64,000 nt of DNA from Cafeteria roenbergensis (Eukaryota; Sar; Bigyra; Bicosoecida; Cafeteriaceae), in assembly GCA_008330645.1 (NCBI GenBank), contig VLTN01000040.1, forward strand, positions 248,001-312,000, given 5' to 3'. The notes below the pieces were generated by a model, which saw nothing but the letters and a program-made list of their open reading frames with translations, was not told where the DNA came from and did no database searches. A program made the translations under genes and the position numbers. This document shows, one piece after another, positions 5,209 through 41,881 of this stretch (positions within the stretch are counted from its first letter, which is position 1; the number at the start of each line of letters is the position of its first letter).

Positions 5209-7166
5209 CTAGATGCTGGTGCCGTACCCGCGAGCAGCTGACCTTGGAGCCGACGATGCGGCGGCGGGGTTCTCGCCCCAGGCCACGATCTCGGGAGAGC
5301 GGACGCTAGTGCCCGTGGTGCCGGAGCCCTCGTCGCTGTCGACGTCGTCGACTTCATCGACCAGCCCGGAGGCTGGCCCCATGCCGCCGTAGTAACCGGC
5401 CTGCTTGGCGGGGGCGGGCGCCGAGGTCATCTGGCGGGGCTGGCCCTCCCCCGAGGTGACGCCACCCGCACCTTGGCCAACCTGCTCGAAGATCGCCGGT
5501 CGGGGGTTGACCAGGTCCTCGGCCACGAATCGGTTTAGGTCGGACTGTTTGATGGCCGCAATGTCGCTGAAGTCCACGGACTGCGGGTGTGGCACGCAGG
5601 GGCGGGAGCGCGGCAGGATGCCGAGGGGCAGGAGAGGCACAGGGTCGAGGGAGGCGTGCGGCGGGCCTGCGCTCAGGAGCGAGGTGGATCAAGCAGGCAG
5701 GCATGCGAAGCGGGGGCAGCGCAACTGGGGCAGCGCGATTGAGGCGGCAGGGGGACGCGGGGCGGGGCTCACAGTGACCGTGCGGTACTGCGCGTAGATG
5801 TGACGCATCTTGAGGACGTTCATGGCCACGCCGTCCACGATGCTGGAGGAGACGGCGAGGAGGCCCATGGAGGTCACGAGCACGATGAGCAGCTGGCTGA
5901 CGGCGAACCGGCCGATCTTGCCGCCCTGCGTGATGACGATGCGGACGCCGTGGCGGTCGATGATGCGGCGGGTGGTCTCGTCGATGCCTGGCCCGGGGTT
6001 GATTTCCTCCGCCTTGAAGTCGGCGTCGGGCACCAGCTTGGAGGTGAGGATGTACTGAACCTTGTTCTCGTCGTAGCTGAAGTAGTTGTCATAGTTGACA
6101 GTCACGATGAGAACTATGCCGGCGTAGCGGAAGGTCTCAGATGTGAACTTGCCGATGTTTCCGGCCCGCTCGTCCAGCGAGCGGACGTCGGCGGCCTGGA
6201 ACAGCGTGTCCAGGGCGATGATGTCAGCCGCGTCCTGGGTGCCAAAGGTGATCTCGAAGCCGGCCCCGTTGGCGAAGGTGGGGCAGAGGTAGCCACGGCG
6301 GGTGTACGCGTCGCAAGGGTTGACCTCCGTGCCGTTGGTGTACTCGATCCTGCCGGTCATGTCGAGGGAGGACTTTGAAAAGTCGAGCGACGGCACCGAC
6401 ATGGTGTGGTCGATGAGCAGCGTGACCAGCTCCGTCCCTGGCACGAAGTACGTCTCCACCGAGGTGGTCTCGTAGCGGCAAGACGGCCTGGGCAGGTCGG
6501 TGCAGTTGGGGGGCAGCTGCTGCAGGGTGTCGTTCACCCGCGTGGAGATGAACAGAGCTTGCGCCTCCACGGGAGGGTACACCGTGTCGAACGTGTCCAG
6601 GTACCGGCACTCGAAGGCAGGGAGGTCCGGAATGAGGCCGTCGGAGCTGGTGTACGTGCGGTTCTTGCCGTCAATCATGCAGTACCGGTGCCTGGACGAG
6701 TTGCGCAGGTACTTGAGGTCGGGTGCGCGAGGCTGCAGGCGGGCCGTCCCCACGACGTCGCCCTGCACCTTGTACCCCATGAGGAGAATCACATTGTACA
6801 CCACCACGTACACGAAAATGAAGAACTTGAACAGCGTGTTCAGCATGCCGAGGCGCCGATCCCTGATCTTCACAAAACGAGCTGAGAGGCGGAATCGGGA
6901 AGCGAAGCGAGGCCTCGAGCGATGGCTGGGGCGCGCCGGCGGCGCCGTGCAAGCGACGCGACGCATCCGCGGCGCGCGGGCACCGCGGCAGCGAGGAGCA
7001 GGCCCGGGCGCGCGGGGGGCGGACGCGGCCGTCGTTGCTCTCGGCGGCTCCTCGAATGTTCCGGTTGCCAGACGGACCCGGGCACCACGTCGCGCGACTC
7101 ACGGGTGCTGTAGGCGAAGACATTGTCAAGGTCCATGTTGCCGCAGCATCCTGAGCCTTTCGTCAT
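5209..7166 (-). CDS. P2X: P2X-type ATP-gated cation channel
   Basis: Trimeric ligand-gated cation channel opened by ATP; in protists it may sit at the plasma membrane or the contractile vacuole. Exons 7166-7103, 6881-5773 and 5580-5209 give 514 residues. The first splice junction completes the P2X hallmark YSTPRFVKIRDRRLG (residues 19-33), which is strong support for the model. TM1 is about 33-57 (MLNTLFKFFIFVYVVVY). A Cys-rich ectodomain with several N-x-S/T sites follows, then GVRIVITQGGKIGRFAVSQL and TM2 at about 345-373. Just after TM1 the KVQG segment resembles the conserved ATP-binding lysine region. The cytosolic tail (392-514) is longer than the minimal family tail and has an acidic Asp/Glu/Ser patch. 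Confidence 0.93.
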
Positions 7167-18288: not shown

Positions 18289-21200
18289 TCACAGCGGCCC
18301 GCGGTGCACCGGCCCGGGACCATCCACCATGGCGCGCAGGTGGGCAGTGCAGCACGCGGCAAGCACGTCTCTCTCAATCACGTACCTCCTCTCTGGGGCA
18401 GTGGACTCCAAAGCGGGCTCGGCGCCTGCGCCAGCCGCCGCGAGTGCTGGCGGCTCCGGCCCCGCATCGCTGTCCTCGCTCTCAGATTCCTCGCCGACGG
18501 ACCCGTTTTCGTCGCCCGCCTCAGCCGCCTCTGCGCCCCGCTGCGCCCTGCTGGGGCTGGCCAGGCGAAGCTTGACCGCGGTGGGGTCCGGGGCTGCGGC
18601 AGCGCTGCGCGGCCGCTCAGCCGCCGGCGACTCAGCCGTCGACGTCGGCCCGCCGCCCGCGACAAAGCCCCCCGAAACGCCCGCATCGGCCGCAGCCGCA
18701 GCCGCAGCCGCAGCGGCCTGAGCTTGGCGGCCAGAGCGGCCCCTCACTGGAGTCGACGGGGCAGCGCTGGCAGTCGCATCGTCGGCTCCCGCCTTCCTCC
18801 TCGGTGACCGCCTGCGGCTCTGCCTGCCGGTTGACCCGCCAGCAGAGCCGTCTGCCGTCGGCACGTCCTCGCCAGCAACGCCCACCGCCTCCTCCATGGC
18901 GGCTTCGCTGTCCGTCGGCTCCGAGCCAGCCAGCATCCTTGCTGCCCTGGTGACCGCCGCCACGGCGGCAGCGCGGCGGCTGGAGCGCCGGGCGGGCGCG
19001 TGCGGCAGGGGCGCGCTTGACGCCCGAGGCGCCTCCCGAAGGGCCCAGCGGCCGTAGCCGCCCTCGAGGAGCGACACCACCCGGCCTGGGCAGCACTGCT
19101 GCGCCACTGACAGCACCATCCTCGTCATCTCCATGTAGTCCTCCGGGAGAAGGTCGCTTCCTGCGTCGGCAGAGCCGTCGTTTCGCGTGTTGCCGACGTC
19201 GGCCTTTCCCGCGTCGAACCCTGCGCTGATGATGATCAGGTCGGGGCCGAAGGCTCGAAGGGCCGGCAGAACTTTCTCCCGCATGCCTGCCAGGAAGGCG
19301 TGCCTGCCGCTGCGAGGGGGCTGGAGAGGCGTGCCGCCCGGCTGCACGGGGGCGCCCTCGAGCAAGAGCGAGCCGGGGCGCTCCCGCTGCGCCGCTCGCA
19401 TCGCTTGGTCGTACTGCTTTCGCGCCCGCGAGGCTTGCAGCGCTGCAGCTCTGCCGCTCCCAGCCTCCCTCCAGAAGGGCGGGATGGGCACGTTGAGAAC
19501 GTTGGCGTGCAGGCAGGGCGCGGCTCCTGACCCGGGGTAGAACGCGTACGACACCTCCGTGTCCGGGCCCACCCGCATGCCCTGCTCGAGGCAGCGCACC
19601 GTGCCTCCCGTGAGCCTAAGGCCGCCCTGCCTGGTTGAAGCGGCGCCCCGAAACAGCAGCGACGACTGGACCCGCGCTGCGCTGCCTCTGGAGGTCAGGG
19701 GGAGCCACCGGCCGCTGCCGGTGCCGGTGCCGGTGCCGGTGCCGGTGCCGGTGCCGGTGCTGGTGTTGCCTGTGCCGGACGGGCCCTCTGTCTCCTCGCC
19801 CCCGCTCTGCGATGTCGCTAGCAAGGGCATGCTGTCCCCGAGCCAGGCGACGGCTCTGTCAGCCTTGAAGGTGGCTTGGCTCGACAACGCCCCCACGCTC
19901 CCTGCAACAGACACCGCGTCCCAGCCCCTGCCGGCGCCTCCCGAGGCTGAGGCGGCGGTTGCGGAGGCAGGCATCCCCACCGACGACGGCGCCTGGGTCA
20001 CAGGCAGAGCAAGGCGCCGCGCCGCCCTGGGAGGGCCAGCGGTGAGCTGATCCGCCAGCGCGTCTCCGGGCCCCGCAGCGCCGCTGGCCAAGGCGCCTCT
20101 GGCGTTGAGGTGGCCGGCGCTGCCCGCCGGTGCCGGATCTCCACCCGCAGCGGCGGCAGAACGACACGCCTGAGCGCGGGCAGCTTCCGCCCACGGGCTC
20201 GGGGGTCCGCTGCCGCCGCTGCCGCCGCCACTCCGGAGTCCGAACGCGACGCCAACCTCGCCGCGAGACCCCCGCAGCGCCGGCCCGCCCCCTGACGACA
20301 CAGCCCGCTGCATCGAGGGGCGTCCGAGCGCCAGGCCGACGTCCCCCGCCCGCGCGCCTCCAGCCCTAGTGGGGGGAGGTGCGGCCGCTTGCCACGCACC
20401 TGAGGGCGCCAGATCCGTCGCCGGGTCACCGCTTAAGTCGCTCGCAGCCCGAGCCAGGCGGGGGCGGCAGGGCAATGCCTCCGAGAGCGACGCTCCCGAC
20501 GACCTTCCCACACCCAGCGGCGCCTCGGCCTTGACGCCGACGGCCCCTTGGGCGCCGCTCGACAGCTCAGCGCTGCTGCCAGCCTGAGCCGACGCGACAC
20601 CCGACGAACCGGCCTCAGCCACCGGGCGGTCCGGGGTGACGACGCTCACCAGGCCGACGATGGAAGCCCCCTCCACCGCGCCAGGCAACTTGGGCTCTGC
20701 CAGCAGAGCCGTCCCGGGCGCGGGGAGTCGAATCGCGTGGCCGTGCTGGAAGGCGGAGGCGAGCGGCGACGCCGCCGGCTGCATGGACAGGCGCGTGGGC
20801 ACGGTGGGGGACGACGCCGCTGACAGCACCAGCGCCGACGAGGAGGAGGAGGAAGAGGAAGAGGAGGAGGGGGCTGTTTGGCCTGAGGTCGAAGCCCCAG
20901 GCGCAGCCGCAGAGTGTGGAACCGCGGCGGCCGGCGGGGCCGCCGCAGCGCTCGGCCCGGGCGCGCCAGTGCCACGGAGGCTGAAGCCTGCTGCGGATCC
21001 AGCCGGTCTGCGGCGCTGCGGGGCCGTGGCCGCCCCGCTTGAGGCCCAGTCGAGGATCGGGTCCGCGTTGGCGAAGCCGGGGGTCGCGAATCGCACGTTG
21101 GAGCGGGAAAGCCGGTCCGGGGTCACAAGGGTGGCAGGGACTGTGCCCGACCTGCCGGCGATAGGGGCGCCAGGACCGGCGGCCGATGGACCACCGGCCG

Positions 21201-23640
21201 CTCCGGGCGTGTGTGGGCCCGGCGGGAGCGTGAGCGCAGTGCTCGCCCCTCCAGCGGCAGGCGGCGCTGGCGGCATCGTCGGCGACGGCATCGGCCGAAT
21301 GATACCGGCCCTAGTGCCGGCTGGGACACCAACAACGGCAGAGCCAGCGGCGGAGGCTGACGACGAGTCCAGTGTCGCGGTGGCCGGACCTGCCGTCGGT
21401 GCCCCATTCACAGGCATGATATGGGCAGAGCCGCCAACTGGCCCGTGCTCACGCAGTGCAGACGTCGGCGACGCGTCGCTCGGAACTGACATCCGTCCAG
21501 CGTCCGAGCCTGCAGAGCCAAGCGATCCTGCCAGCCGCGACCGTTTGGCCGGAGTCCCGACCCGGCTCGCAGACGAGTGGGCCGCGATGGAGGCGGAGCG
21601 AGGCTTCTGGCCCGGAGACGGGGCGGCAGCGGCAGCGGCAGCGGCAGCAGTGAGCTGGCGCGCAGGGTCCGCGCCGACGCCATCGCCGGCCGGCCCTCGA
21701 GCAGCGGTCCCGGATTCCGACGAGGGCGTGCCCAGAGACCCGTGGGTCCGTGCCCGCTTCCGTCGGGACTCGGGGCGCGAGCGACCCTGAGGGAATGGCG
21801 AAACCGCCGCACCACTAGCAGGCGAAACTGCTGCGCCGTTGGCAGCGACGTCACCGTCGCCATCGCCTCCCCCGCCGTTCCCGACCCTCGCCGGGGCAGC
21901 ATCAGACGTCGCCGCCGCGCTCCGGGAAGCAGGGCGCGTCGACGCGGCGGCAGCGCCCCGACGCCGCCGCCCACGCGACCCGCTGCCGCTGCCCGCTCCC
22001 TTCTCGCCGCCGTCGCCGCTGCACGACCCTTCCGTCGATCCTTCCGGATTCGCGTCGCACTTTTTCGTTTCCACATCGAATATATGCAACGACGCAAAGA
22101 ACAGGTCCCGGCTGCGGGACGGGTTGGCGGCGGCCCACGCCCTGACAATCTCCTCCGTGCCGTTGCCGTGGTGGGCGTCGAAGTCTACGACGGCAACTCG
22201 GCGAACTGGCTGCAGCGGCGGGGGCCGGGCTGCGGGAAGCTCTGCCGCCTGGCCCGCCGTCGCGCCCCGCGGCGCCTGCGCCTGTGACGCCGCGTCGGTC
22301 GCGCCCTCATCCCCGGCAGCGCTGCCCGAACGCGGCACGGCCCGACCTGCCGCCTCTGCCGCCGCTGCCGCTGCGGTTGTTGCTGCTGCTGCCGCCGCCG
22401 CCGCGTCCGCTGCTGCCAGCGCTGCGCCCCCCGGCACCCACGTGTCAAGGGCGTGGAGAGCGGCCACGGCCGCGGTGTTGAAGACGCAGAAGCCGCATGA
22501 GGCAGAGCAGGCCGCTCCTTCCAGAAGTCCGTTGATGCCGGCGTGGTGGCCCGGCGGCCGCACTACGCAGAGCGCGTGGCGGCACTCGCCCGTGACCACA
22601 GCGTCGACGGCGCGGATGGCCGCGCCTGCGGCTCGCGAGGCCGCCATGAACGTGCCCGGGCTGAAGGAGGTGTCCGAGAGGCCTGCCTTGGTCTCCGTGG
22701 CCGACGCCCCGCCGACTGTGCGCTGCAGCACCGGCGTGAACGGGATGGGTGCCACGGCGTTGGCCACGGCGGCGGAGAGCGACTGGACCAGCTCCACGTA
22801 CTGGAGGGAGTGCGCGCGCGTGAGCTGGTGCACCGATGCCCGCGGGAAGCCCGAGTCCACGATATCGAGCAGAGCTGGGGCGACGTCGCCGGCCTCGCGG
22901 ACTCGCTTGAGGATGGCGGTGATGCGCTGGGGGGCCTCTTGGTGGCCCTCCCTGGTGGAATGGAGGAGGCAGTCGGTGTGGGTGAAGAGCCTGCAGCGCA
23001 GGCGCGGGCACTTGCCCACCAGCGCGGCCCGCACCAGCGACGCGGCCTTGTCGCTCACGGCGCCGTCGAGGCTGCCCGCGACGTCGAAGGGCGTCTCCAT
23101 GGCGTGGTTGCGGTGCAAAGGGTCAGCCCCGAGGGCGAGAAGGGCCTTGCAGGTGTGCAGGCGGCCCACGCGCGCTGCGCGGTGCAGAGGCGTTTCCCCA
23201 GCGTCAGACTCGGCGTCCACGGGGGCGCGCCCCTCCCCGACCAGCAGGCGCACGAGGGCGGCGTCCGCACATACGGCCGCCCAGTGCAGTGCCGTGAAGC
23301 CGTGCCCGTCCTGCGCCGCCACGCTGGCGTGCTTGGCAAGCAAAAACCGCGCACAGGCCAGGCGCGCGGGGGCCTCGGGCAGCGTGCACGCCAGCATGAG
23401 AGGCGTGAAATGGTTTTCGTCGTGCATGTCGATGCACGTGGCGGCCTGTGCCGGGCCCTGGTCGCTGCAAAGGCTGTTCCAGGCGGCCTGGAGGCGAGCG
23501 TGAATTGGTTGACCTGCTCCGTTTCCGGCCGCGCCGCTCGAGGCGTCCCGCGGGGGCGACTGCGACAGCGCCTCGTGCAGCGTCGATGAGCCGCGGCGCC
23601 GATGCAGCCGGGCGGCCAGCAGCGGCGTTCTCAGCCTCAT
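18289..23640 (-). CDS. Class II histone deacetylase with N-terminal ankyrin repeats
   Basis: Zn-dependent lysine deacetylase. Single exon, 1783 residues, start at the first ATG before the ankyrin block. Ankyrin repeats at about 40-170 include NHFTPLMLACT, GHGFTALHWAAV and AGETPLHRAARVGRL. The deacetylase domain begins near residue 290. Catalytic elements are present: RPPGHHA (about 361), FDAHHGNGT (about 485), SAGFDAG (about 1470) and LEGGYG (about 1524), so His-His, the Zn-binding Asp/His/Asp and the Tyr are in place. Between SLHIFD and FYPGSG, adjacent in ordinary class II enzymes, lies an insert of about 820 disordered residues with Ser and Thr-Gly runs. The C-terminus has basic RRRSPRRK-type patches suited to nuclear import. 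An ankyrin-HDAC arrangement is also known in apicomplexan HDA1. It shares a divergent promoter with FAM50. Confidence 0.9.
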   Translation of the reverse strand: MRLRTPLLAARLHRRRGSSTLHEALSQSPPRDASSGAAGNGAGQPIHARLQAAWNSLCSDQGPAQAATCIDMHDENHFTPLMLACTLPEAPARLACARFLLAKHASVAAQDGHGFTALHWAAVCADAALVRLLVGEGRAPVDAESDAGETPLHRAARVGRLHTCKALLALGADPLHRNHAMETPFDVAGSLDGAVSDKAASLVRAALVGKCPRLRCRLFTHTDCLLHSTREGHQEAPQRITAILKRVREAGDVAPALLDIVDSGFPRASVHQLTRAHSLQYVELVQSLSAAVANAVAPIPFTPVLQRTVGGASATETKAGLSDTSFSPGTFMAASRAAGAAIRAVDAVVTGECRHALCVVRPPGHHAGINGLLEGAACSASCGFCVFNTAAVAALHALDTWVPGGAALAAADAAAAAAAATTAAAAAAEAAGRAVPRSGSAAGDEGATDAASQAQAPRGATAGQAAELPAARPPPLQPVRRVAVVDFDAHHGNGTEEIVRAWAAANPSRSRDLFFASLHIFDVETKKCDANPEGSTEGSCSGDGGEKGAGSGSGSRGRRRRGAAAASTRPASRSAAATSDAAPARVGNGGGGDGDGDVAANGAAVSPASGAAVSPFPQGRSRPESRRKRARTHGSLGTPSSESGTAARGPAGDGVGADPARQLTAAAAAAAAAPSPGQKPRSASIAAHSSASRVGTPAKRSRLAGSLGSAGSDAGRMSVPSDASPTSALREHGPVGGSAHIMPVNGAPTAGPATATLDSSSASAAGSAVVGVPAGTRAGIIRPMPSPTMPPAPPAAGGASTALTLPPGPHTPGAAGGPSAAGPGAPIAGRSGTVPATLVTPDRLSRSNVRFATPGFANADPILDWASSGAATAPQRRRPAGSAAGFSLRGTGAPGPSAAAAPPAAAVPHSAAAPGASTSGQTAPSSSSSSSSSSSALVLSAASSPTVPTRLSMQPAASPLASAFQHGHAIRLPAPGTALLAEPKLPGAVEGASIVGLVSVVTPDRPVAEAGSSGVASAQAGSSAELSSGAQGAVGVKAEAPLGVGRSSGASLSEALPCRPRLARAASDLSGDPATDLAPSGAWQAAAPPPTRAGGARAGDVGLALGRPSMQRAVSSGGGPALRGSRGEVGVAFGLRSGGGSGGSGPPSPWAEAARAQACRSAAAAGGDPAPAGSAGHLNARGALASGAAGPGDALADQLTAGPPRAARRLALPVTQAPSSVGMPASATAASASGGAGRGWDAVSVAGSVGALSSQATFKADRAVAWLGDSMPLLATSQSGGEETEGPSGTGNTSTGTGTGTGTGTGTGSGRWLPLTSRGSAARVQSSLLFRGAASTRQGGLRLTGGTVRCLEQGMRVGPDTEVSYAFYPGSGAAPCLHANVLNVPIPPFWREAGSGRAAALQASRARKQYDQAMRAAQRERPGSLLLEGAPVQPGGTPLQPPRSGRHAFLAGMREKVLPALRAFGPDLIIISAGFDAGKADVGNTRNDGSADAGSDLLPEDYMEMTRMVLSVAQQCCPGRVVSLLEGGYGRWALREAPRASSAPLPHAPARRSSRRAAAVAAVTRAARMLAGSEPTDSEAAMEEAVGVAGEDVPTADGSAGGSTGRQSRRRSPRRKAGADDATASAAPSTPVRGRSGRQAQAAAAAAAAAADAGVSGGFVAGGGPTSTAESPAAERPRSAAAAPDPTAVKLRLASPSRAQRGAEAAEAGDENGSVGEESESEDSDAGPEPPALAAAGAGAEPALESTAPERRYVIERDVLAACCTAHLRAMVDGPGPVHRGPL

Positions 23641-24110
23641 GGACCTGCGGCGCGCAGCACCACGAGCGCAACTCTGAATGTGGGCACCCTCCGCGCAGCC
23701 CGCCGCAGACGAAGCAAACCGGCCAAACGTCGGCACCCGCGAATGCGAGCAGGAAGCTCCGCGCCCCGTGAGAACCCTCCCAGCCCCCGTGCGCGGGACT
23801 GTCGTCGCGGCGGCTGGGCCGCGCGCGCGGTGCGGCGCAAGGCATGCCCTCACTGGAACGCCAGGAACCCGTCCAGCTGTTCCGGAATCCCAATCGTGAG
23901 CCCGGGGCTCGCCATCGCAGCAGGCTGGTGTTTCGTGCTCCCTGGGCCGGCGCGTCCCGGTGCCGGGGCCTCGGCAAGCACTGCCTCGCCGCGGCAACTG
24001 GCTGTGGCCGAAAATCGATAGCCTGCAGAGCCGGGCGCGGGGAGCCGCTCTTGCAACCGGCGCCACGCCCGCCGCGGCTGCCACCCCCGCGAGGCCGCGG
24101 GCAGGGGGCG
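23641..24110. promoter_or_regulatory. Divergent promoter HDAC / FAM50
   Basis: 470 bp between start codons of two divergent nuclear regulators. Composition is less extreme than in the flanking coding DNA. No core element recognised. Confidence 0.4.
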
Positions 24111-27916: not shown

Positions 27917-29347
27917 TCAGGCGCTCGGCTTGGCCGCGGCTGCCGCCGTTCCCGCGCCCGCGGTCGCCGCAGCGCCCCCCTCCCCTGCCGCCTTTCCAGA
28001 CGCACCCACAGACTTGTGGATGGGCGGGGGCGTCCAGAGTGCGGCGGCCTTGGCGCTGAAGGAGAGCACGAGCGCCCTGGTGGGGTGCATGACCACGCCG
28101 ATGATGGGGTCGGCGTGACGAGACTCATCCGAGCCCCCCGCCGCCTCGCCCAGCAGCGCGCGGGGCAGCTTCCCGGCGTCCACGCGGTCAAAGGGCTTGC
28201 CAGCCTCCATGGAGGCGAAGGCCCCCAGGAAGATAGCCTCCGGCCGGCCGCACGCCGTGGGGCGCACCAGGCAGGAGCCGCAGGGCGAGAAGGCGGACGC
28301 GGCCATTGCCGTGCCGTCGGGGCGGCCGAGAACAGTCGGCGTGGCCGCGGCGGGTCCGGCGCCGGCCGTTGCCTCCGCGCCCGCCGCTGCCCCGGCAGCC
28401 GCCCCCGCCGCGCCGGCCGGAATCTCCGTGTGCTCTGGGACGTCGGCGAGGATGGTTAGGTCAAAGGCGTTGAGCAGGTGCACAGCCCCGAGCGACGTGG
28501 TCAGGGCGAGGATCTTGCCGTCAGGGGAGCAGGCCAGGTGGGTCCACCGCTCGTCGTGCTCCTCCACGGACCCACCCCCGCGCGCAGACGACGAAGCGGG
28601 TCCGGCGGAGCCGGAGTCTGCGCCGGCCGCGGCCGCGGAGGCCGCCCCGCGATCTGACCCTGCCGGCACGATGGCCGCCCTCACGCGCTTCCTGAGCAGC
28701 GCAGCGGGGGCCGCCGACGTCTTGAATGGTCCCATCATGAAGCTCGCGACGCTGTAGAGCGCCACGCCGCAGTCCGGCCCGGCCACGACGAACACGGTGC
28801 CGGTTGCGTCGAAGCAGGTCAGGTTCGCCGAGGAGCCCACCCGGGTGGTCGCCACGGCGTTGCACGCGCCCATGTGCCACAGCATCACGTTGCCGGCCTC
28901 GTCCGTGGACGCGAAGATGTCTCTGGTCGGGCACACGCTGACGCAGACGACCCTGGTCTCGCCGTGCGCCGAGTGCATGCGCGTCGCGGTGTTGTCGTGC
29001 AGCCGGTGCTGCACGATGGTCCCGCTGCGCGTGCCGATCGACTTGCCGGCAGCGTAGACAATGCTGGCGCTGTGGTGGGTGAAGGTCATGGCGCGCACGC
29101 CGAAGGCCTCGTTGCGGTGCAGCGCTTGCAAGTAGCCTCCCGCCGGATGAATGGCGTGCAGCTGTCCGTCCGTGGTGGAGACCACCGCGCGCTCGCCGGT
29201 GCCCGACATTGCCGCCCCCGCAAACCACTGGAGCTCCCGCGCCTCGGGCGCACTGTCGGGCGGCGTTCTGGGAACGAACGTTTTCGACGGCGCCCAGCGG
29301 CGCATCGACTCGGGCGTGAGCACGAGGGCCTCGCCGTCAGCTGCCAT
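27917..29347 (-). CDS. WDR82: WDR82/Swd2-like WD40 protein
   Basis: Beta-propeller subunit of the COMPASS/SET1 H3K4 methyltransferase and PNUTS-PP1 complexes. Single exon, 476 residues against about 313 in animals. The N-terminus EALVLTPESMRRWAPSKTF fits the WDR82 start. Then come FGVRAMTFTHHSASIVYAAG, HRLHDNTATRMHSAHGETR, DIFASTDEAGNVMLWHMG, FDATGTVFVVAGPDCGVALY and SFMMGPFKT, which follow the WDR82 order (FTHHP, LHDNKYIRYFKGH, RLWDLR, YDQQGLVFAVA, KGPFDTF). Ala/Gly-rich inserts separate late blades and extend the C-terminus. The start is the ATG directly before the conserved N-terminus. Confidence 0.85.
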   Translation of the reverse strand: MAADGEALVLTPESMRRWAPSKTFVPRTPPDSAPEARELQWFAGAAMSGTGERAVVSTTDGQLHAIHPAGGYLQALHRNEAFGVRAMTFTHHSASIVYAAGKSIGTRSGTIVQHRLHDNTATRMHSAHGETRVVCVSVCPTRDIFASTDEAGNVMLWHMGACNAVATTRVGSSANLTCFDATGTVFVVAGPDCGVALYSVASFMMGPFKTSAAPAALLRKRVRAAIVPAGSDRGAASAAAAGADSGSAGPASSSARGGGSVEEHDERWTHLACSPDGKILALTTSLGAVHLLNAFDLTILADVPEHTEIPAGAAGAAAGAAAGAEATAGAGPAAATPTVLGRPDGTAMAASAFSPCGSCLVRPTACGRPEAIFLGAFASMEAGKPFDRVDAGKLPRALLGEAAGGSDESRHADPIIGVVMHPTRALVLSFSAKAAALWTPPPIHKSVGASGKAAGEGGAAATAGAGTAAAAAKPSA

Positions 29348-30238
29348 CACCCAAGGCGCGCAGCGGAGGCGCGACTGCTCCCCACACGCAGACAGCCAGG
29401 GAAGCCAGCCGCGAGCTCGCCGGGTTGTGCTGTCCCGCCGACCGAGGGAGCTTTGCCCGTGAGCCGGGTTGGGCTCTGCCCTGAGCTGCTCGCCTGGCAG
29501 GCCGTTCCGCGCGCCACCCGGACCACCGCTTTCGCTCGCGGCCTCCACTGCGGAAGCCAGCTTCGGCCCTCTCGCGCGCGGGGGCGGGAGGGTGCGGCGC
29601 CGCCGTCGTGGCGCCGGGGCCGCATCCGTTTCGTCGCAAACCGTGTCAAAGCGGGGAGGCGCAATTGCCTCCAGCCGGCGGCAGCCTCGGTAGCAGGGCA
29701 GGCTCCGGCCACGACGAGGAGCAACAGAGCGCACTCACCGTTGGCTGGCGCCCGCGCCAGGCCTGCCGGACAAGCTGTGTGTGAATTGCTCGCAGGGGCA
29801 GCATCAGCATGCTTTTCGCGTTGCTGAAGCGCTGCTCAACCTCGCCTGCGCATTCAGGCAGTGCCATAAGAAGCCCCCGCACCCCGAAGGTTGAAGTCGG
29901 CCAGAGGAGTGGGGCACGGCTGGCGCAGTCAACTGCCCTGCTCGCCGATTCCCTACTCGGCCTCTGCTGTGCAAACGCCGAGCGTCGCGCGGTGGGAGGG
30001 GCGATGTGTGCGAGCAGGGCGCGCCACTTCTGGCGTGGACACGCAGCGCTGCCACATGCTCTCGGTGGCGGCTTGCCAATCCGGCAACTCAGCGGCGGCG
30101 AGATGTGGCAGGCTGGCGGACAGCCAATCGTCGCGGTGGCACCCGCAGCCTCGACCCCAAGCCTGTAAGGATGCATGCCTCGATTCGTGCTTGACGAGGC
30201 GGGTGCAGCAAGAGCCTTGTCTGGCTCAGAAGGTGCGC
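29348..30238. other. Intergenic, WDR82 promoter side
   Basis: About 890 bp between the WDR82 start and the stop of the ankyrin gene, both minus. GGCTCTGCC is at 29472-29480, 125 bp upstream of the WDR82 start. Short open frames exist on both strands, without domains or splice logic. Confidence 0.5.
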
Positions 30239-33200
30239 TCACTCAAACATGTCAACGGTCACCTCGACCCATGCCTTCATGCCGCGCCACCGTTCGGCCT
30301 CGCTGGGAGTGGCAGCGCCGTCGGCAAGCGCCCTCAAATGCGCACTCAGCACCCACGTGCTCTGCCTGATCCGCTGGCGATGGACAGGGTCACCCGTGGA
30401 CAGGGCACGCACGAGCCACGACACGCCAGTCTGCGGACGTGGCAAGATGCAACGAGCGACGCAGAAAAGCAATGAGGCACGGGGCCTGCGCGAAAGCAGA
30501 CCTGTGCTGGTTGAGCAATGAGAACCCGCACCTGGAAGAGCTGCGAGCCTGCTGGATTCCCGGGGCGATGCTCGACGCTGCTCACAGCGTCGGGGACTTT
30601 GAGAGTCGCGCCGCAGTCGATGAGGAGCTGCACCACATCCGTGTGGCCCGTCATGGCGGTCAGCGTCAACGCCGTGTCGCCATTCTGCGATCACGCATCG
30701 GCCGACCAGCCACACCGCCCCGCATCGACCCCCACGCGAGAGGCACCGGCCCCGCTCCCCGCCCTACGTCGCGCCCTCCCGCCAGCCGACCCCGCTCCGA
30801 CCCGACCCCCGACTGGGCAGTGACCCGCCGCTTCCCCAGACCGACGGCACGGGGGGGCGCGGCACGCCTCCCCCGCACGCCCGCCCCCAATCATCGCCAC
30901 CCACGCGCCCATCCCCCCGGCCCGGCCCCCGCCCGCCCCGCGCCTCCCCGAGCCCTGATCCGACCGCCCGGACTCGGACCCCACGCGGGGGCGGGCCGCC
31001 CGCAGCGGTGCCTGGTCGCTCGCACGAGGGCGACACGGGCGGGTCAGTGGTGTCGCGCTGCGCGCCGCGCTCTCACCTTGTCGGCGGCCTCGATGTCGGC
31101 GCCGCGGTCGATGAGGAGCTGCACCACGTCCATGTGGCCCCGCACGGTGGCCATCGTCAACGCGGTGCGCCCATCCTGCGATCACGCATCGGCCGATCAG
31201 CCACACCGCCCCGCATCGACCCCCACGCGAGAGGCACCGGCCCCGCTCCCCGCCCGACGTCGCGCCCTCCCGCCAGCCGACCCCGCTCCGACCCGACCCC
31301 CGACTGGGCAGTGACCCGCCGCTTCCCCAGACCGACGGCACGGGGGGGCGCGGCACGCCTCCCCCGCACGCCCGCCCCCAATCATCGCCACCCACGCGCC
31401 CATCCCCCCGGCCCGGCCCCCGCCCGCCCCGCGCCTCCCGAGCCCTGATCCGACCGCCCGGACTCGGACCCCACGCGGGGGCGGGCCGCCCGCAGCGGTG
31501 CCTGGTCGCTCGCACGAGGGCGACACGGGCGGGTCAGTGGTGTCGCGCTGCGCGCCGCGCTCTCACCTTGTTGACGGCCTCGATGTCGGCGCCGCGGTCG
31601 ATGAGCAGCCGCACCACATCCGTGTGGCCATCCATGGCGGTCAGCGTCAACGCGGTGCTCCCATCCTGCGATCACGCATCGGCCGACCAGCCACACCGCC
31701 CCGCATCGACCCCCACGCGAGAGGCAACGGCCCCGCTCCCCGCCCGACGTCGCGCCCTCCCGCCAGCCGACCCCGCTCCGACCCGACCCCCGACTGGGCA
31801 GTGACCCGCCGCTTCCCCAGACCGACGGCACGGGGGGGCGCGGCACGCCTCCCCCGCACGCCCGCCCCCAATCATCGCCACCCACGCGCCCATCCCCCGG
31901 CCCGGTCCCGCCCGCCCCGCGCCTCCCCGAGCCCTGATCCGACCGCCCGGACTCGGACCCCACGCGGGGCGGGCCGCCCGCAGCGGTGCCTGGTCGCTCG
32001 CACGAGGGCGACACGGGCGGGTCAGTGGTGTCGCGCTGCGCGCCCGCGCTCTCACCTTGTCGGCGGCCTCGATGTCGGCGCCGCGGTCGATGAGGAGCTG
32101 CACCACGTCCATGTGGCCCCGCACGGTGGCCATCGTCAACGCGGTGCGCCCATCCTGCGATCACGCATCGGCCGACCAGCCACACCGCCCCGCATCGACC
32201 CCCACGCGAGAGGCACCGGCCCCGCTCCCCGCCCGACGTCGCGCCCTCCCGCCAGCCGACCCCGCTCCGACCCGACCCCCGACTGGGCAGTGACCCGCCG
32301 CTTCCCCAGACCGACGGCACGGGGGGGCGCGGCACGCCTCCCCCGCACGCCCGCCCCCAATCATCGCCACCCACGCGCCCATCCCCCCGGCCCGGCCCCC
32401 GCCCGCCCCGCGCCTCCCCGAGCCCTGATCCGACCGCCCGGACTCGGACCCCACGCGGGGGCGGGCCGCCCGCAGCGGTGCCTGGTCGCTCGCACGAGGG
32501 CGACACGGGCGGGTCAGTGGTGTCGCGCTGCGCGCCGCGCTCTCACCTTGTTGACGGCCTCGATGTCGGCGCCGCGGTCGATGAGCAGCCGCACCACATC
32601 CGTGTGGCCATCCATGGCGGTCAGCGTCAACGCGGTGCTCCCATCCTGCGATCACGCATCGGCCGACCAGCCACACCGCCCCGCATCGACCCCCACGCGA
32701 GAGGCAACGGCCCCGCTCCCCGCCTGACGTCGCGCCCTCCCGCCAGCCGACCCCGCTCCGACCCGACCCCCGACTGGGCAGTGACCCGCCGCTTCCCCAG
32801 ACCGACGGCACGGGGGGGCGCGGCACGCCTCCCCCGCACGCCCGCCCCCAATCATCGCCACCCACGCGCCCATCCCCCCGGCCCGGTCCCGCCCGCCCCG
32901 CGCCTCCCCGAGCCCTGATCCGACCGCCCGGACTCGGACCCCACGCGGGGGCGGGCCGCCCGCAGCGGTGCCTGGTCGCTCGCACGAGGGCGACACGGGC
33001 GGGTCAGTGGTGTCGCGCTGCGCGCCGCGCTCTCACCTTGTTGACGGCCTCGATGTCGGCGCCGCGGTCGATGAGGAGCCGCACCACATCCGTGTGGCCA
33101 TCCATGGCGGTCAGCGTCAAGGCGGTGCTCCCATCCTGCGATCACGCATCGGCCGACCAGCCGCACCGCCCCGCATCGACCCCACGCGAGAGGCAACGGC

Positions 33201-36200
33201 CCCGCTCCCCGCCCGACGTCGCGCCCTCCCGCCAGCCGACCCCGCTCCGACCCGACCCCCGACTGGGCAGTGACCCGCCGCTTCCCCAGACCGACGGCAC
33301 GGGGGGCGCGGCACGCCTCCCCCGCACGCCCGCCCCCAATCATCGCCACCCACGCGCCCATCCCCCCGGCCCGGGTCCCGCCCGCCCCGCGCCTCCCCGA
33401 GCCCTGATCCGACCGCCCGGACTCGGACCCCACGCGGGGGCGGGCCGCCCGCAGCGGTGCCTGGTCGCTCGCACGAGGGCGACACGGCGGGTCAGTGGTG
33501 TCGCGCTGCGCGCCGCGCTCTCACCTTGTTGACGGCCTCGATGTCGGCGCCGCGGTCGATGAGCAGCCGCACCACATCCGTGTGGCCATCCATGGCGGTC
33601 AGCGTCAACGCGGTGCTCCCATCCTGCGATCACGCATCGGCCGACCAGCCACACCGCCCCGCATCGACCCCCACGCGAGAGGCAACGGCCCCGCTCCCCG
33701 CCTGACGTCGCGCCCTCCCGCCAGCCGACCCCGCTCCGACCCGACCCCCGACTGGGCAGTGACCCGCCGCTTCCCCAGACCGACGACACGGGGGAGCGCG
33801 GCACGCCTCCCCCGCACGGCCGCCCCCGCACCGTCACCACCCACGCGCCCACCCCCCCCGGCCCGGCCCCCGCCCGCCCCGCGCCTCCCCGAGCCCTGAT
33901 CCGACCGCCCGGACTCGGACCCCACGCGGGGGCGGGCCGCCCGCAGCGGTGCCTGGTCGCTCGCACGAGGGCGACACGGGCGGGTCAGTGGTGTCGCGCT
34001 CCGCGCCGCGCTTTCACCTTGTCGGCGGCCTCGATGTCGGCGCCGCGGTCGATGAGCAGCCGCACCACGTCCTTGCGGCCATCCATGGCGGTCAGCGTCA
34101 AGGCGGTGCGCCCATACTGCGATCACGCATCGGCCGACCAGCCACACCGCCCCGCATCGACCCCCACGCGAGAGGCAACGGCCCCGCTCCCCGCCTGACG
34201 TCGCGCCCTCCCGCCAGCCGACCCCGCTCCGACCCGACCCCCGACTGGGCAGTGACCCGCCGCTTCCCCAGACCGACGGCACGGGGGGGCGCGGCACGCC
34301 TCCCCCGCACGGCCGCCCCCGCACCGTGACCACCCACGCGCCCACCCCCCCCGGCCCGGCCCCCGCCCGCCCCGCGCCTCCCCGAGCCCTGATCCGACCG
34401 CCCGGACTCGGACCCCACGCGGGGGCGGGCCGCCCGCAGCGGTGCCTGGTCGCTCGCACGAGGGCGACACGGGCGGGTCAGTGGTGTCGCGCTGCGCGCC
34501 GCGCTCTCACCTTGTTGACGGCCTCGATGTCGGCGCCACGGTCGATGAGCAGCTGCACCACATCCGTGTGGCCATCCATGGCGGTCAGCGTCAAGGCGGT
34601 GCGCCCATCCTGCGATCACGCATCGGCCGACCAGCCGCACCGCCCCGCATCGACCCCCACGCGAGAGGCACCGGCCCCGCTCCCCGCCTGACGTCGCGCC
34701 CTCCCGCCAGCCGACCCCGCTCCGACCCGACCCCCGACTGGGCAGTGACCCGCCACTTCCCCAGACCGACGACACTCGCGGGCGCGGCACGCCTCCCCCC
34801 GCATGACCGCCCCCGCACCACCACCACCCACGCGCCCACCCCCCCCGGCCCGGACCCCGCCCGCCCCGCGCCTCCCCGAGCCCTGATCCGACCGCCCGGA
34901 CTCGGACCCCACGCGGGGGCGGGCCGCCCGCAGCGGTGCCTGGTCGCTCGCACGAGGGCGACACGGGCGGGTCAGTGGTGTCGCGCTCCGCGCCGCGCTC
35001 TCACCTTGTCGGCGGCCTCGATGTCGGCGCCGCGGTCGATGAGGAGCCGCACCACATCCTTGTGGCCATCCATGGCGGCCAGCGTCAACGCGGTGCTCCC
35101 ATACTGCGATCACGCATCGGCCGACCAGCCGCACCGCCCCGCATCGACCCCCACGCGAGAGGCACCGGCCCCGCTCCCCGCCTGACGTCGCGCCCTCCCG
35201 CCAGCCGACCCCGCCCCGACCCGACCCCCGACTGGGCAGTGACCCGCCACTTCCCCAGACCGACGACACTCGCGGGCGCGGCACGCCTCCCCCCGCATGA
35301 CCGCCCCCGCACCACCACCACCCACGCGCCCACCCCCCCCGGCCCGGACCCCGCCCGCCCCGCGCCTCCCCGAGCCCTGATCCGACCGCCCGGACTCGGA
35401 CCCCACGCGGGGGCGGGCCGCCCGCAGCGGTGCCTGGTCGCTCGCACGAGGGCGACACGGGCGGGTCAGTGGTGTCGCGCTGCGCGCCGCGCTCTCACCT
35501 TGTCGGCGGCCTCGATGTCGGCGCCGCGGTCGATGAGCAGCTGCACCACGTCCTTGCGGCCATCCATGGCGGCCATCGTCAACGCGGTGCGCCCATACTG
35601 CGATCACGCATCGGCCGACCAGCCACACCGCCCCGCATCGACCCCCACGCGAGAGGCAACGGCCCCGCTCCCCGCCCGACGTCCCGCCCTCCCGCCAGCC
35701 GACCCCGCCCCGACCCGACCCCCGACTGGGCAGTGACCCGCCACTTCCCCAGACCGACGACACTCGGGGGCGCGGCACGCCTCCCCCGCGCTGGGCCGCC
35801 CCCGCACCACCACCACCCACGCGCCCACCCCCCCCGCCCTGGCCCCCGCCCGCCCCGCGCCTCCCCGAGCCCTGATCCGACCGCCCGGACTCGGACCCCA
35901 CGCGGGGGCGGGCCGCCCGCAGCGGTGCCTGGTCGCTCGCACGAGGGCGACACAGGCGGGTCAGTGGTGTCGCGCTCCGCGCTGCGCTCTCACCTTGTTG
36001 GCGGCCTCGATGTCGGCGCCGCGGTCGATGAGGAGCCGCACCACATCCTTGTGGCCATCCCAGGCGGCCATCATCAGCGCGGTGCTCCCATCCTGCGATC
36101 ACGCATCGGCCGACCAGCCACATCGCCCCGCATCGACCCCACGCGAGTGGCAACGGCCCCGCTCCCCGCCCTACGTCGCGCCCTCCCGCCGGCCGACCCC

Positions 36201-39200
36201 GCTCCGACCCGTCCCCGGCCTCGCCGGCCCCGCCGCTGCCCCCGACGACACTCGCGGGCGCGGCACGCCTCCCCCCGCATGACCGCCCCCGCACCACCAC
36301 CACCCACGCGCCCACCCCCGGTCCCGCCCGCCCCGCGCCTCCCCGAGCCCTGATCCGACCGCCCGGACTCGGACGTCACGCGGGGGCGGGCCGCCCGCAG
36401 CGGTGCCGCATCGCTCGCACGAGGGCGACACAGGCGGGTCAGTGGCGTCGCGGTACGCGCTGCGCTCTCACCTTGTTGGTGGCCCCGATGTCGGCGCCGC
36501 GGTCGATGAGGAGCTGCGCCACGTCCCTGTGGCCTTTCCAGCCGGCCAGAATCAAGGTCTTGCTCCCATACTGCGATCACGCATCGGCCGACCAGCCACA
36601 TCGTCCCGCATCGACCCCACGCGCGAGGCAACGGCCCCGCTCCCCGCCCTACGTCGCGCCCTCCCGCCAGCCGACCCCGCTCCGACCCGTCCCCGGCCTC
36701 ACCGGCCCCGCCGCTGCCCCCGACGACACTCGCGGGCGCGGCACGCCTCCCCCCGCATGACCGCCCCCGCACCACCACCACCCACGCGCCCACCCCCGGC
36801 CCGGCCCCGTCCGCCCCGCGCCTCCCCGAGCCCTGATCCGACCGCCCGGACTCGGACGTCACGCGGGGGCGGGCCGCCCGCAGCGGTGCCGCATCGCTCG
36901 CACGAGGGCGACACGGGCGGGTCAGTGGCGTCGCGGTACGCGCTGCGCTCTCACCTTGTTGGTGGCCCCGATGTCGGCGCCGCGGTCGATGAGGAGCTGC
37001 GCCACGTCCCTGTGGCCTTTCCAGGCGGCCAGTAGCAGTGCGGTGTTCCCATCCTGCGATCACGCATCGGCCGATCAGCCGCACCGCCCCGCATCGACCC
37101 CACGCGAGAGGCAACGGCCCCGCTCCCCGCCCGACGTCGCGCCCTCCCGCCAGCCGACCCCGCTCCGACCCGACCCCCGACTGGGCAGTGTCCCGCCACT
37201 TCCCCAGACCGACGACACTCGGGGGCGCGGCACGCCTCCCCCGCGCTGGGCCGCCCCCGCACCACCACCACCCACGCGCCCACCCCCCCGGCCCGGCCCC
37301 CGCCCGCCCCGCGCCTCCCCGAGCCCTGATCCGACCGCCCGGACTCGGACCCCACGCGGGGGCGGGCCGCCCGCAGCGGTGCCTGGTCGCTCGCACGAGG
37401 GCGACACAGGCGGGTCAGTGGTGTCGCGCTCCGCGCTGCGCTCTCACCGTGTTGGCGGCCTCGATGTCGGCGCCGCGGTCGATGAGCAGCTGCACCACAT
37501 CCGTGTGGCCATCCCAGGCGGCCATCATCAGCGCGGTGCTCCCATCCTGCGATCACGCATCGGCCGACCAGCCACATCGCCCCGCATCGACCCCACGCGA
37601 GTGGCAACGGCCCCGCTCCCCGCCCTACGTCGCGCCCTCCCGCCGGCCGACCCCGCTCCGACCCGTCCCCGGCCTCGCCGGCCCCGCCGCTGCCCCCGAC
37701 GACACTCGCGGGCGCGGCACGCCTCCCCCCGCATGACCGCCCCCGCACCACCACCACCCACGCGCCCACCCCCGGTCCCGCCCGCCCCGCGCCTCCCCGA
37801 GCCCTGATCCGACCGCCCGGACTCGGACCCCACGCGGGGGCGGGCCGCCCGCAGCGGTGCCTGGTCGCTCGCACGAGGGCGACACGGGCGGGTCAGTGGT
37901 GTCGCGCTGCGCGCTGCGCTCTCACCGTGTTGGCGGCCTCGATGTCGGCGCCGCGGTCGATGAGGAGCTGCGCCACGTCCTTGCGGCCTTTCCAGCCGGC
38001 CAGAATCAAGGTCTTGCTCCCATACTGCGATCACGCATCGGCCGATCAGCCACATCGCCCCGCATCGACCCCCACGCGCGAGGCAACGGCCCCGCTCCCC
38101 GCCCTACGTCGCGCCCTCCCGCCAGCCGACCCCGCTCCGACCCGTCCCCGGCCTCGCCGGCCCCGCCGCTGCCCCCGACGACACTCGCGGGCGCGGCACG
38201 CCTCCCCCCGCATGACCGCCCCCGCACCACCACCACCCACGCGCCCACCCCCGGCCCGGCCCCGTCCGCCCCGCGCCTCCCCGAGCCCTGATCCGACCGC
38301 CCGGACTCGGACCCCACGCGGGGGCGGGCCGCCCGCAGCGGTGCCGCATCGCTCGCACGAGGGCGACACAGGCGGGTCAGTGGCGTCGCGCTGCGCGCCG
38401 CGCTCTCACCTTGTTGGTGGCCCCGATGTCGGCGCCGCGGTCGATGAGGAGCTGCACCACGTCCGTGTGGCCTTTCCAGGCGGCCAGTAGCAGTGCGGTG
38501 TTCCCATCCTGCGATCACGCATCGGCCGATCAGCCACACCGCCCCGCATCGACCCCACGCGAGAGGCAACGGCCCCGCTCCCCGCCCGACGTCGCGCCCT
38601 CCCGCCAGCCGACCCCGCCCCGACCCGTCCCCGGCCTCGCCGGCCCCGCCGCTGCCCCCGACGACACTCGCGGGCGCGGCACGCCTCCCCCCGCATGACC
38701 GCCCCCGCACCACCACCACCCACGCGCCCACCCCCGGCCCGGCCCCGTCCGCCCCGCGCCTCCCCGAGCCCTGATCCGACCGCCCGGACTCGGACCCCAC
38801 GCGGGGGCGGGCCGCCCGCAGCGGTGCCGCATCGCTCGCACGAGGGCGACACGGGCGGGTCAGTGGCGTCGCGCTGCGCGCCGCGCTCTCACCTTGTTGA
38901 CGGCCTCGATGTCGGCGCCACGGTCGATGAGGAGCTGCACCACATCCGTGTGGCCATCCATGGCGGTCAGCGTCAACGCGGTGCGCCCATCCTGCGATCA
39001 CGCATCGGCCGACCAGCCGCACCGCCCCGCATCGACCCCCACGCGAGAGGCACCGGCCCCGCTCCCCGCCTGACGTCGCGCCCTCCCGCCAGCCGACCCC
39101 GCTCCGACCCGACCCCCGACTGGGCAGTGACCCGCCACTTCCCCAGACCGACGACACTCGCGGGCGCGGCACGCCTCCCCCCGCATGACCGCCCCCGCAC

Positions 39201-41881
39201 CACCACCACCCACGCGCCCACCCCCGGCCCGGACCCCGCCCGCCCCGCGCCTCCCCGAGCCCTGATCCGACCGCCCGGACTCGGACCCCACGCGGGGGCG
39301 GGCCGCCCGCAGCGGTGCCTGGTCGCTCGCACGAGGGCGACACGGGCGGGTCAGTGGTGTCGCGCTGCGCGCGCGCTCTCACCTTGTCGGCGGCCCTCGA
39401 TGTCGGCGCCGCGGTCGATGAGCAGCTGCACCACGTCCTTGCGGCCATCCATGGCGGCCATCGTCAACGCGGTGCGCCCATACTGCGATCACGCATCGGC
39501 CGACAAGCCACACCGCCCCGCATCGACCCCCACGCGAGAGGCAACGGCCCCGCTCCCCGCCCGACGTCCCGCCCTCCCGCCAGCCGACCCCGCTCCGACC
39601 CGACCCCCGACTGGGCAGTGACCCGCCGCTTCCCCAGACCGACGACACGGGGGAGCGCGGCACGCCTCCCCCGCGCTGGGCCGCCCCCGCACCGTCACCA
39701 CCCACGCGCCCATCCCCCCGGCCCGGCCCCCGCCCGCCCCGCGCCTCCCCGAGCCCTGATCCGACCGCCCGGACTCGGACCCCACGCGGGGGCGGGCCGC
39801 CCGCAGCGGTGCCGCATCGCTCGCACGAGGGCGACACGGGCGGGTCAGTGGTGTCGCGCTGCGCGCCGCGCTCTCACCTTGTCGGCGGCCTCGATGTCGG
39901 CGCCGCGGTCGATGAGGAGCCGCACCACATCCGTGTGGCCCGTCATGGCGGTCAGCGTCAACGCGGTGCGCCCATCCTGCGATCACGCATCGGCCGACCA
40001 GCCACACCGCCCCGCATCGACCCCCACGCGAGAGGCACCGGCCCCGCTCCCCGCCCGACGTCGCGCCCTCCCGCCAGCCGACCCCGCTCCGACCCGACCC
40101 CCGACTGGGCAGTGACCCGCCGCTTCCCCAGACCGACGACACTCGCGGGCGCGGCACGCCTCCCCCGCACGCCCGCCCCCGCACCGTCACCACCCACGCG
40201 CCCATCCCCCCCGGCCCGGACCCCGCCCGCCCCGCGCCTCCCCGAGCCCTGATCCGACCGCCCGGACTCGGACCCCACGCGGGGGCGGGCCGCCCGCAGC
40301 GGTGCCGCATCGCTCGCACGAGGGCGACACGGGCGGGTCAGTGGTGCGCTCTCACCGTGTTGGCGGCCTCGATGTCGGCGCCGCGGTCGATGAGGAGCCG
40401 CACCACATCCGTGTGGCCATCCATGGCGGTCAGCGTCAAGGCGGTGCGCCCATCCTGCGATCACGCATCGGCCGACCAGCCACACCGCCCCGCATCGACC
40501 CCCACGCGAGAGGCACCGGCCCCGCTCCCCGCCCGACGTCGCGCCCTCCCGCCAGCCGACCCCGCTCCGACCCGACCCCCGACTGGGCAGTGACCCGCCG
40601 CTTCCCCAGACCGACGACACTCGCGGGCGCGGCACGCCTCCCCCGCACGCCCGCCCCCGCACCGTCACCACCCACGCGCCCATCCCCCCCGGCCCGGCCC
40701 CCGCCCGCCCCGCGCCTCCCCGAGCCCTGATCCGACCACCCGGACTCGGACGTCACGCGGGGGCGGGCCGCCCGCAGCAGGGCCACGTCGCTCGCACGAG
40801 GGCGACACGGGCGGGTCAGTGGTGTCACGCTCCGCGCCGCGCTCTCACCTTGTTGGTGGCCCCGATGTCGGCGCCGCGGTCGATGAGGAGCTGCGCCACG
40901 TCCTTGTGGCCATTCCAGCCGGCCAGAATCAAGGTCGTGTCGCCCTTCTGCGATCACGCATCGGCCGATCAGCCACACCGCCCCGCATCGACCCCACGCG
41001 AGTGGCAACGGCCCCGCTCCCCGCCCGATGTCGCGCCCTCCCGCCAGCCGACCCCGCCCCGACCCGTCCCCGGCCTCGCCGGCCCCGCCGCTGCCCCCGA
41101 CGACACTCGCGGGCGCGGCACGCCTCCCCCGCACGGCCGCCCCCGCACCACCGCCACCCACGCGCCCACCCCCGGCCCGGCCCCGTCCGCCCCGCGCCCG
41201 CCTCGAGCCCTGATCCGACCGCCCGGACTCGGACGCCACGCGGGGGCGGGCCGCCCGCAGCAGTGCCGCATCGCTCGCACGAGGGTGACACGGGCAGGTC
41301 GGTGGCGTCGCGGTACGCGCTGCGCTCTCACCTCGTTGGTGGCCTCGATGTCGGCGCCGCGGTCGATGAGGAGCTGCGCCACATCCGTGTGGCCGTTCAT
41401 AGCGGCCAGCAGCAACGCGGTGCTCCCATCCTGCGATCACGCATCAGCCGATCAGCCACATCGCTCCGCATGGCCCCACTTGCAGTCGCCGAGGCAGCAA
41501 TTTGCTTGGTGTCTGTCTCTGGTCTTTGCCTTTGATCCATGAGTCAGCATTGCCGGGATGGAAAGTTGACATCAACCCGGCATCTTCACTAACCCGGCAC
41601 CCACCCGTCATCAGAGCACCACCCGCCAAGCCCACGGCTCCAGCCCTCCGCGAGCGCCGCTGTCCACGGCCATGGTTCACAGTCGGCTACGTTTCAGTAA
41701 GCACTGCGGAGCGCCCTCCCGTCACAGGCCGCAGGCGCTTTGAGGCTTGGGGCCGCAGCGCAAGCTTGCTGCTCGTGCTCACACCGAGTCGCTCGTTCAC
41801 GTCGTGGCCGTCATCCAAAGCCTTTGTCACCGTCTCCACGTCGCCAGCAGTGATGGCAGCCTCAAACGCAGCCAATGCCAT
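30239..41881 (-). CDS. Ankyrin-array protein, one repeat per exon
   Basis: 25 exons by hand. Exon 1 (41881-41783, 99 nt) encodes a cap, MALAAFEAAITAGDVETVTK and DVNERLG. Then 23 exons follow, 22 of exactly 99 nt and one of 100 nt (39482-39383); each encodes one 33-residue ankyrin repeat of the type DGRTALTLTAMDGHTDVVQ plus LLIDRGADI and EAVNK. The terminal exon (30430-30239) encodes TGVSWLVRALSTGDPVHRQR and ends VEVTVDMFE. Every intron is phase 0 with GTGAG donor and GATCGCAG acceptor in the array. The sum is about 855 residues, one base off frame because of the 100-nt exon. The protein would be a solenoid with very conserved LLIDRGADI loops and variable first-helix residues, so a binding scaffold is likely; the ligand is unknown. 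No transmembrane segment or enzyme domain is visible. Splicing is inferred from sequence only. Confidence 0.85.
30586..41430 (-). repeat. 23-unit exon-intron tandem array, 478-495 bp period
   Basis: Exon coordinates in gene order: 41430-41332, 40947-40849, 40454-40356, 39976-39878, 39482-39383, 38991-38893, 38508-38410, 38024-37926, 37546-37448, 37053-36955, 36570-36472, 36092-35994, 35597-35499, 35103-35005, 34609-34511, 34116-34018, 33623-33525, 33135-33037, 32645-32547, 32154-32056, 31665-31567, 31175-31077, 30684-30586. The introns between units are about 380-396 bp and nearly identical. They fall into two families: one with a GACTGGGCAGTG-type core, the other with a CGGCCTCGCCGGCCCCGCC-type core. 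Confidence 0.95.

Follow-up and report, generated by a model that had tools for sequence, protein, structure and literature searches.

Genes in which each exon encodes one repeat are already known among LRR genes. In brown algae, the LRR genes of the ROCO family contain one repeat per exon in exons of 72 bp that are in phase 2 and undergo shuffling and alternative splicing (PMC11378527). In Tetrahymena, LRR genes contain tandem 90-bp phase-2 exons, which are copied together with their introns, and this has been attributed to unequal crossing-over (PMC6564038). The ankyrin repeats of fungal NLR proteins are internally alike, undergo concerted evolution, and are polymorphic in repeat number; in one fungal NLR, selected sites of the ankyrin repeats map to the inner helices and the hairpin with one exception (PMC4986451). 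In designed ankyrin libraries, defined surface positions are randomised (PMC8683736).

Here, we present an analysis of a predicted ankyrin gene at 30239-41881 on the minus strand of a 64,000-nucleotide stretch of DNA (the window). This gene model has the general features of one-repeat-per-exon arrays, i.e., exons of repeat length, a constant phase, and a tandem arrangement that includes the introns. Similarly to this locus, ROCO genes have fixed-length, one-repeat exons of constant phase, which are tandem and shuffled (PMC11378527; Zambounis et al. 2012, as reported in citing text), and their variable sites are on the concave face; for ROCO, a recognition role has been proposed (PMC11378527). 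However, ROCO genes encode LRRs in 72-bp phase-2 exons and are tied to a ROC-COR part, whereas the locus encodes ankyrin repeats in 99-nt phase-0 exons; a ROC-COR part had no match in the cap exon or the terminal exon, which form the predicted ends of the gene. Near-identical introns are a feature of the locus, and the available text of PMC11378527 makes no mention of them for ROCO genes. The Tetrahymena arrays share with the locus that an exon has exactly the length of one repeat and is copied together with its intron. They differ from it in encoding LRRs, in the length and phase of the exons, in comprising thousands of genes, and in their link to a retrotransposon (PMC6564038); because their exons are in phase 2, a repeat is split across exons. 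Altogether, the locus works like the ROCO and Tetrahymena families, yet lacks their defining features (repeat type, exon length, phase, and ROC-COR).

The fungal NLR ankyrins resemble the locus in having internally alike repeats with concerted evolution, of which block duplication, alike neighbours, and mosaic units are present here. However, in those proteins the repeats come after a NACHT or NB-ARC part, neither of which was found in the cap exon, the terminal exon, or the 17 scanned ORFs (of 87 listed in the window). Moreover, the word "intron" is absent from the main text of PMC4986451, so that no exon-per-repeat layout is described there. The gene model contains no signalling domain, and nothing at the locus ties the gene to immunity. 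In the designed binder 5leb_A, three printed internal units differ at ten positions, i.e., as at the locus they vary at all six positions that we tested (see below), plus four others; such DARPins are engineered proteins without a gene layout. Solved structures matching the repeats were those of animal ankyrins, with ANK1 and ANK2 among the top matches, and designed ankyrin binders. Vertebrate ankyrin genes have 99-bp repeat exons, and ANK1 and ANK2, which form long ankyrin solenoids as the locus would, are multi-domain proteins; to our knowledge, their repeats are not a homogenised exon-plus-intron array. Among the matches listed in the open-licence literature, there was no ankyrin array with one repeat per exon. 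A 19-mer acceptor motif gave no find in a viral contig collection, a four-repeat protein gave one unconfirmed peptide-pattern match and otherwise nothing in the same collection, and a 25-mer gave no find in a genome contig collection that holds prokaryotes only. An earlier note on this DNA had likened the gene to the modular logic of variable-repeat recognition proteins; our data bear out the layout, phase, and copied introns described there.

The gene model comprises a cap exon, 23 internal exons, and one terminal exon, all on the minus strand and in phase 0. The cap exon (41783-41881; 99 nt) has its ATG at 41881, encodes an N-terminal half-repeat-like sequence (MALAAFEAAITAGDVETVTKALDDGHDVNERLG), has no Pfam match on its own, and is followed by the donor GTGAGC. 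Intron 0 (41431-41782; 352 nt) resembles the array introns only in its last ~50 nt (86%). Each internal exon encodes one 33-residue ankyrin repeat, and 22 of the 23 have a length of 99 nt, i.e., exons 1 (41332-41430), 2 (40849-40947), 3 (40356-40454), 4 (39878-39976), 6 (38893-38991), 7 (38410-38508), 8 (37926-38024), 9 (37448-37546), 10 (36955-37053), 11 (36472-36570), 12 (35994-36092), 13 (35499-35597), 14 (35005-35103), 15 (34511-34609), 16 (34018-34116), 17 (33525-33623), 18 (33037-33135), 19 (32547-32645), 20 (32056-32154), 21 (31567-31665), 22 (31077-31175), and 23 (30586-30684), while exon 5 (39383-39482) has a length of 100 nt. Exons 20 and 22 are of a divergent type inside near-identical introns, and exon 23 is the most diverged repeat. 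The 22 array introns between exons 1 and 23 (within 30685-41331) are 379-396 nt each and have the form GTGA...CAG. Exon 23 is followed by intron 23 (30431-30585; 155 nt), the composition of which is unrelated to that of the array introns, and by the terminal exon (30239-30430; 63 codons and a stop, phase 0), which has a single sub-threshold Pfam match (E 0.032). The start of the terminal exon is uncertain and represents a choice because, of the 18 AGs listed, those at 30430, 30373, 30361, 30298, 30274, and 30262 all reach the stop at 30239; others lead to different stops. Read unspliced, exon 23 runs to a stop at 30346; a layout in which the 23rd repeat is part of the terminal exon was ruled out based on the donor at exactly 99 nt. 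In this way, we reproduced the coordinates and counts of the layout originally proposed (a cap, 23 one-repeat exons in phase 0, of which 22 have 99 nt and one 100 nt, and a terminal exon), and between successive exon starts we measured the same period of 478-495 bp.

Several lines of evidence support that the array is a spliced gene with this exon structure, which we consider highly likely, with splicing predicted from the DNA sequence. First, the acceptor TCGCAG precedes all 23 internal exons, the donors of these exons are GTGAGA in 21 cases, GTGAAA in one (exon 16), and GTGAGC in one (exon 23), and the splice dinucleotides are intact throughout. The window contains 23 copies of the acceptor 15-mer GATGCGTGATCGCAG, whereas 100 shuffles contained none. 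Second, there are 20 distinct gap intervals in the array introns (18 of which have lengths not divisible by three) versus one in the exons (Fisher test against variable columns, P 0.007; against all alignment columns, P 0.09), and 19 of the 22 array introns have their first in-frame stop no later than codon 11, while it is far in for two and absent from intron 5; these gaps and stops, the latter mostly one inherited site, are largely inherited copies rather than independent cases. Third, the repeats match Pfam Ank (PF00023) with an E-value of 1e-51 and 170.4 bits versus a cut-off of 21.1, with six stretches matched in the six joined repeats scored (exons 15-20 of 23). Fourth, codons 20-28 have zero replacement differences among the first 22 repeats, while synonymous differences are present (pS 0.092); exon 23, which is outside this count, carries three replacements in these otherwise invariant codons. 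With respect to the docking/selector pairing of Dscam-type exon choice, the best complementary match, which pairs intron 0 with an array intron, had an E-value of 2.4.

The array consists of closely similar units that include exon and intron. Tandem Repeats Finder reported 22.2 copies of a 494-bp unit with 93% matches, and the 22 exon-plus-intron units (478-495 bp) have a mean identity of 91.3% (range 84.4-99.6%). Neighbouring units are more alike than under shuffled order (P 0.0002). The block of units 7-8-9 is duplicated as 10-11-12 (identities of 0.971-0.975 for the pairs 7-10, 8-11, and 9-12) and the block 19-20 is duplicated as 21-22 (0.996 for 19-21 and 0.980 for 20-22). Exon distances correlate with the distances of the downstream introns (r 0.51) and of the upstream introns (r 0.55), arguing that the units were copied whole. 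For pairs of informative sites, all four gametes are present in 83 of the 253 pairs within exons, 354 of the 903 within introns, and 546 of the 989 that combine an exon site with an intron site, counts that recurrent mutation could inflate, and r2 is 0.30 within 25 columns and 0.12-0.20 beyond. The four-gamete and r2 pattern agrees with a combination of unequal crossing-over and short conversion tracts, and we regard unequal exchange with short-tract conversion as very probably the recombination history of the array. The duplicated blocks and mosaic units substantiate the earlier proposal of recombination among the repeats; similarly, the near-identical introns and the correlated distances agree with the claim that the introns were copied along with the exons. 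Among the exons, exon 23 deviates most. Among the introns, it is intron 1 that deviates most (mean distance 0.087), while intron 22 at the other end does not stand out (0.047), and we count this one-sided edge effect against our best explanation.

The array also has an unusual base composition. The GC content is 72.6% for the window and on average 80.0% for array introns 1-22 (lowest, 79.5%) versus 62.5% for intron 0 and 62.6% for intron 23; at third codon positions, 21 array exons have a value of 0.91, compared with 0.85 for exon 23 and 0.67 for the cap. The high GC content of the array introns may result from GC-biased conversion; a GC-rich founder unit would equally yield it.

We found that the exons are more diverse than the introns with which they were copied. 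Nucleotide diversity (pi) is 0.130 in exons versus 0.054 in introns, i.e., 2.4-fold higher in exons, and within the exon it is 0.182 in codons 1-19 and 0.024 in codons 20-28. Among 498 circular 99-column windows along the unit, the exon window ranked top with one tie, and the best exon-free window reached 0.102. Thus, the description of the array as homogenised is correct for the introns and incorrect for the exons, which are kept different. The sharpest contrast is seen for units 19 and 22, whose exons have 14 mismatches in 99 bases, 12 of which replace residues in 10 codons, while their introns differ at 1 of 392 bases downstream and 4 of 390 bases upstream. Between units 6 and 7, the exons have 17 mismatches in 99 bases, compared with 5 in 384 bases of the downstream intron and 22 in 383 bases of the upstream one; for units 6 and 15, the pattern is reversed, with 2 mismatches in 99 exon bases and 28 in 383 bases of the downstream intron. 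Using thresholds that we set ourselves, nine of 231 unit pairs combine an exon distance of 10% or more with intron distances below 2%; because eight of these nine pairs involve the exon-20/22 type, they correspond to approximately two cases rather than nine. This discordance argues that exon and intron histories have been uncoupled by tracts approximately as short as an exon. At synonymous sites, exon diversity (0.117) is likewise higher than intron diversity, so that unusual homogenisation of the introns could explain part of the contrast; the synonymous excess fits hitching to replaced tracts as well as stronger homogenisation of the introns.

To relate this diversity to ligand binding, we analysed six positions in the exon frame (1, 3, 11, 12, 31, and 33), which we take to be those randomised in designed ankyrin libraries. 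Mean entropy is 1.33 bits at these positions and 0.41 elsewhere (permutation P 0.0002), i.e., the diversity is position-specific, and constraint on the remaining positions would also be expected to leave these six more variable. The six positions have 18 replacement and two synonymous events, a ratio that is higher than at the other 27 positions with 17 and 10 events, respectively (Fisher P 0.036), and that is not in excess over the neutral share (P 0.35). The pN/pS of 3.8 that the six positions show was rejected as proof of positive selection because it rests on ~2.9 synonymous sites and two synonymous events and given the fit to the neutral share. It is mainly the contrast with the introns that suggests positive selection, and we lean slightly toward selection on the binding face of the repeats.

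The same data bear on the strongest alternative, namely that the gene encodes an ordinary ankyrin scaffold without changing partners, the array of which drifts by exchange and conversion with a constrained framework and free exposed positions. The neutral share of events at the six positions is consistent with such a scaffold, as are the overall pN/pS of 1.15 and the lack of replacements in codons 20-28 among 22 units. However, free drift predicts equal diversity in exons and introns, while exon diversity is 2.4-fold higher, and the exon-confined differences between units 19 and 22 and between units 6 and 7 fit poorly with it. We therefore consider the scaffold unlikely, albeit less so than the other alternatives.

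Exon 5 raises the question of whether the allele is intact. It is identical to exon 13 except for one extra G inside a G run and, as written, puts the downstream exons out of frame, so that in-frame products must lack either exon 5 or its extra base. Three explanations are conceivable: the extra G is erroneous, exon 5 is skipped, or the allele is defective. Consequently, the idea that any set of exons can be skipped or included applies to 22 of the 23 internal exons and breaks down for the 100-nt exon 5, the inclusion of which disrupts the frame. The intron after exon 5 (38992-39382, minus strand) is the sole array intron of 22 without an in-frame stop. Furthermore, the joined exons downstream of exon 5 (30239-39482, minus strand) stay open in the shifted frame throughout the rest of the model, which probably reflects the scarcity of stops at such a GC content; for the same reason, we rejected a meaning for this open frame. 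If the extra base were a lesion, the array would be a decaying or silent allele that once was coding and now drifts, and the shifted frame of the later exons as well as the three replacements of exon 23 in codons 20-28 would be in line with this. By contrast, length, frame, and splice sites are kept in 22 of the 23 exons, and an extra base in a G run of an otherwise exact copy of exon 13 is also the kind of mistake that sequencing or polishing commonly introduces, arguing that decay is improbable.

Two further alternatives are very unlikely. Neighbouring units that are up to 98-99.6% identical might have led an assembler to create the copy number or order of the units, but 18 distinct exon sequences among the 22 units together with many intron variants distinguish the units, the array ends join the unique cap and terminal exons, and a wrong copy number would not produce the contrast between exons and introns. 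Similarly, introner elements, i.e., like introns inserted at the repeat junctions after the repeats had diverged, would account for introns that are more alike than exons, but not for correlated exon and intron distances or for blocks duplicated whole, and outside the array the window has no good match to the intron (best, 50 bases at 76%, E 0.002).

We therefore favour as the probable explanation a spliced, modular ankyrin binder that has been diversified by recombination. According to this model, a nuclear gene of a GC-rich eukaryote would encode a near-pure ankyrin solenoid in which a maximum of 23 internal repeats lie between a cap and a short tail. Unequal crossing-over together with short-tract, perhaps GC-favouring, conversion would resize the array and erase differences between introns, while selection, or the repeated import of exon-length tracts, would hold the binding faces of the repeats different. 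The near-identical introns would be the sites of the recombination that adds, loses, and mixes repeats in the DNA; given the phase-0 introns, such changes would leave the frame intact. Exon skipping could likewise change the set of repeats in the RNA. The protein would then most likely be a modular binding rod, the length and specificity of which shift by gain, loss, mixing, and possibly skipping of exons, and its partners would most plausibly be foreign or variable molecules. A recognition role, which we draw by analogy from genes with the same logic rather than from this locus, is a tentative suggestion that we would not place at even odds. It is more doubtful still that the gene functions as a natural DARPin-like generator, in which conversion confined to exons and yielding new binding faces, homogenised introns as recombination handles, and a repeat number varied by splicing would give rise to strain- or individual-specific recognition repertoires.

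The genes around the array are eukaryotic, with matches to tubulin, EMP70, and histone deacetylase, and the window has no Rfam or tRNA match. Its GC content is close to the 73.25% of the haptophyte Diacronema lutheri (PMC8379373), one of several GC-rich organisms with which it may be compared. Directly downstream on the same strand, a WD40-like ORF with weak matches (27917-29734, minus strand) looks like a separate gene. A long ORF at 18289-24084 (minus strand) joins ankyrin repeats (approximately residues 240-326) to a histone deacetylase domain. A 39-bp tandem repeat at 14274-14990 (18.4 copies, 99% match) sits in a 1594-residue minus-strand ORF, the end of which matches a C2 domain, and an ORF at 5689-6966 (minus strand) matches the P2X receptor family (E 1.5e-15).

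Since every unit offers both an exon and an intron for comparison, the array contains an internal control that separates homogenisation from selection. The array also predicts that strains differ in the number of repeats and in the binding face. If the gene is expressed, then diversification by one exon per repeat would reach beyond LRR receptors to include ankyrins and, probably, a further lineage; this would suggest that the one-exon-per-repeat layout arises repeatedly.
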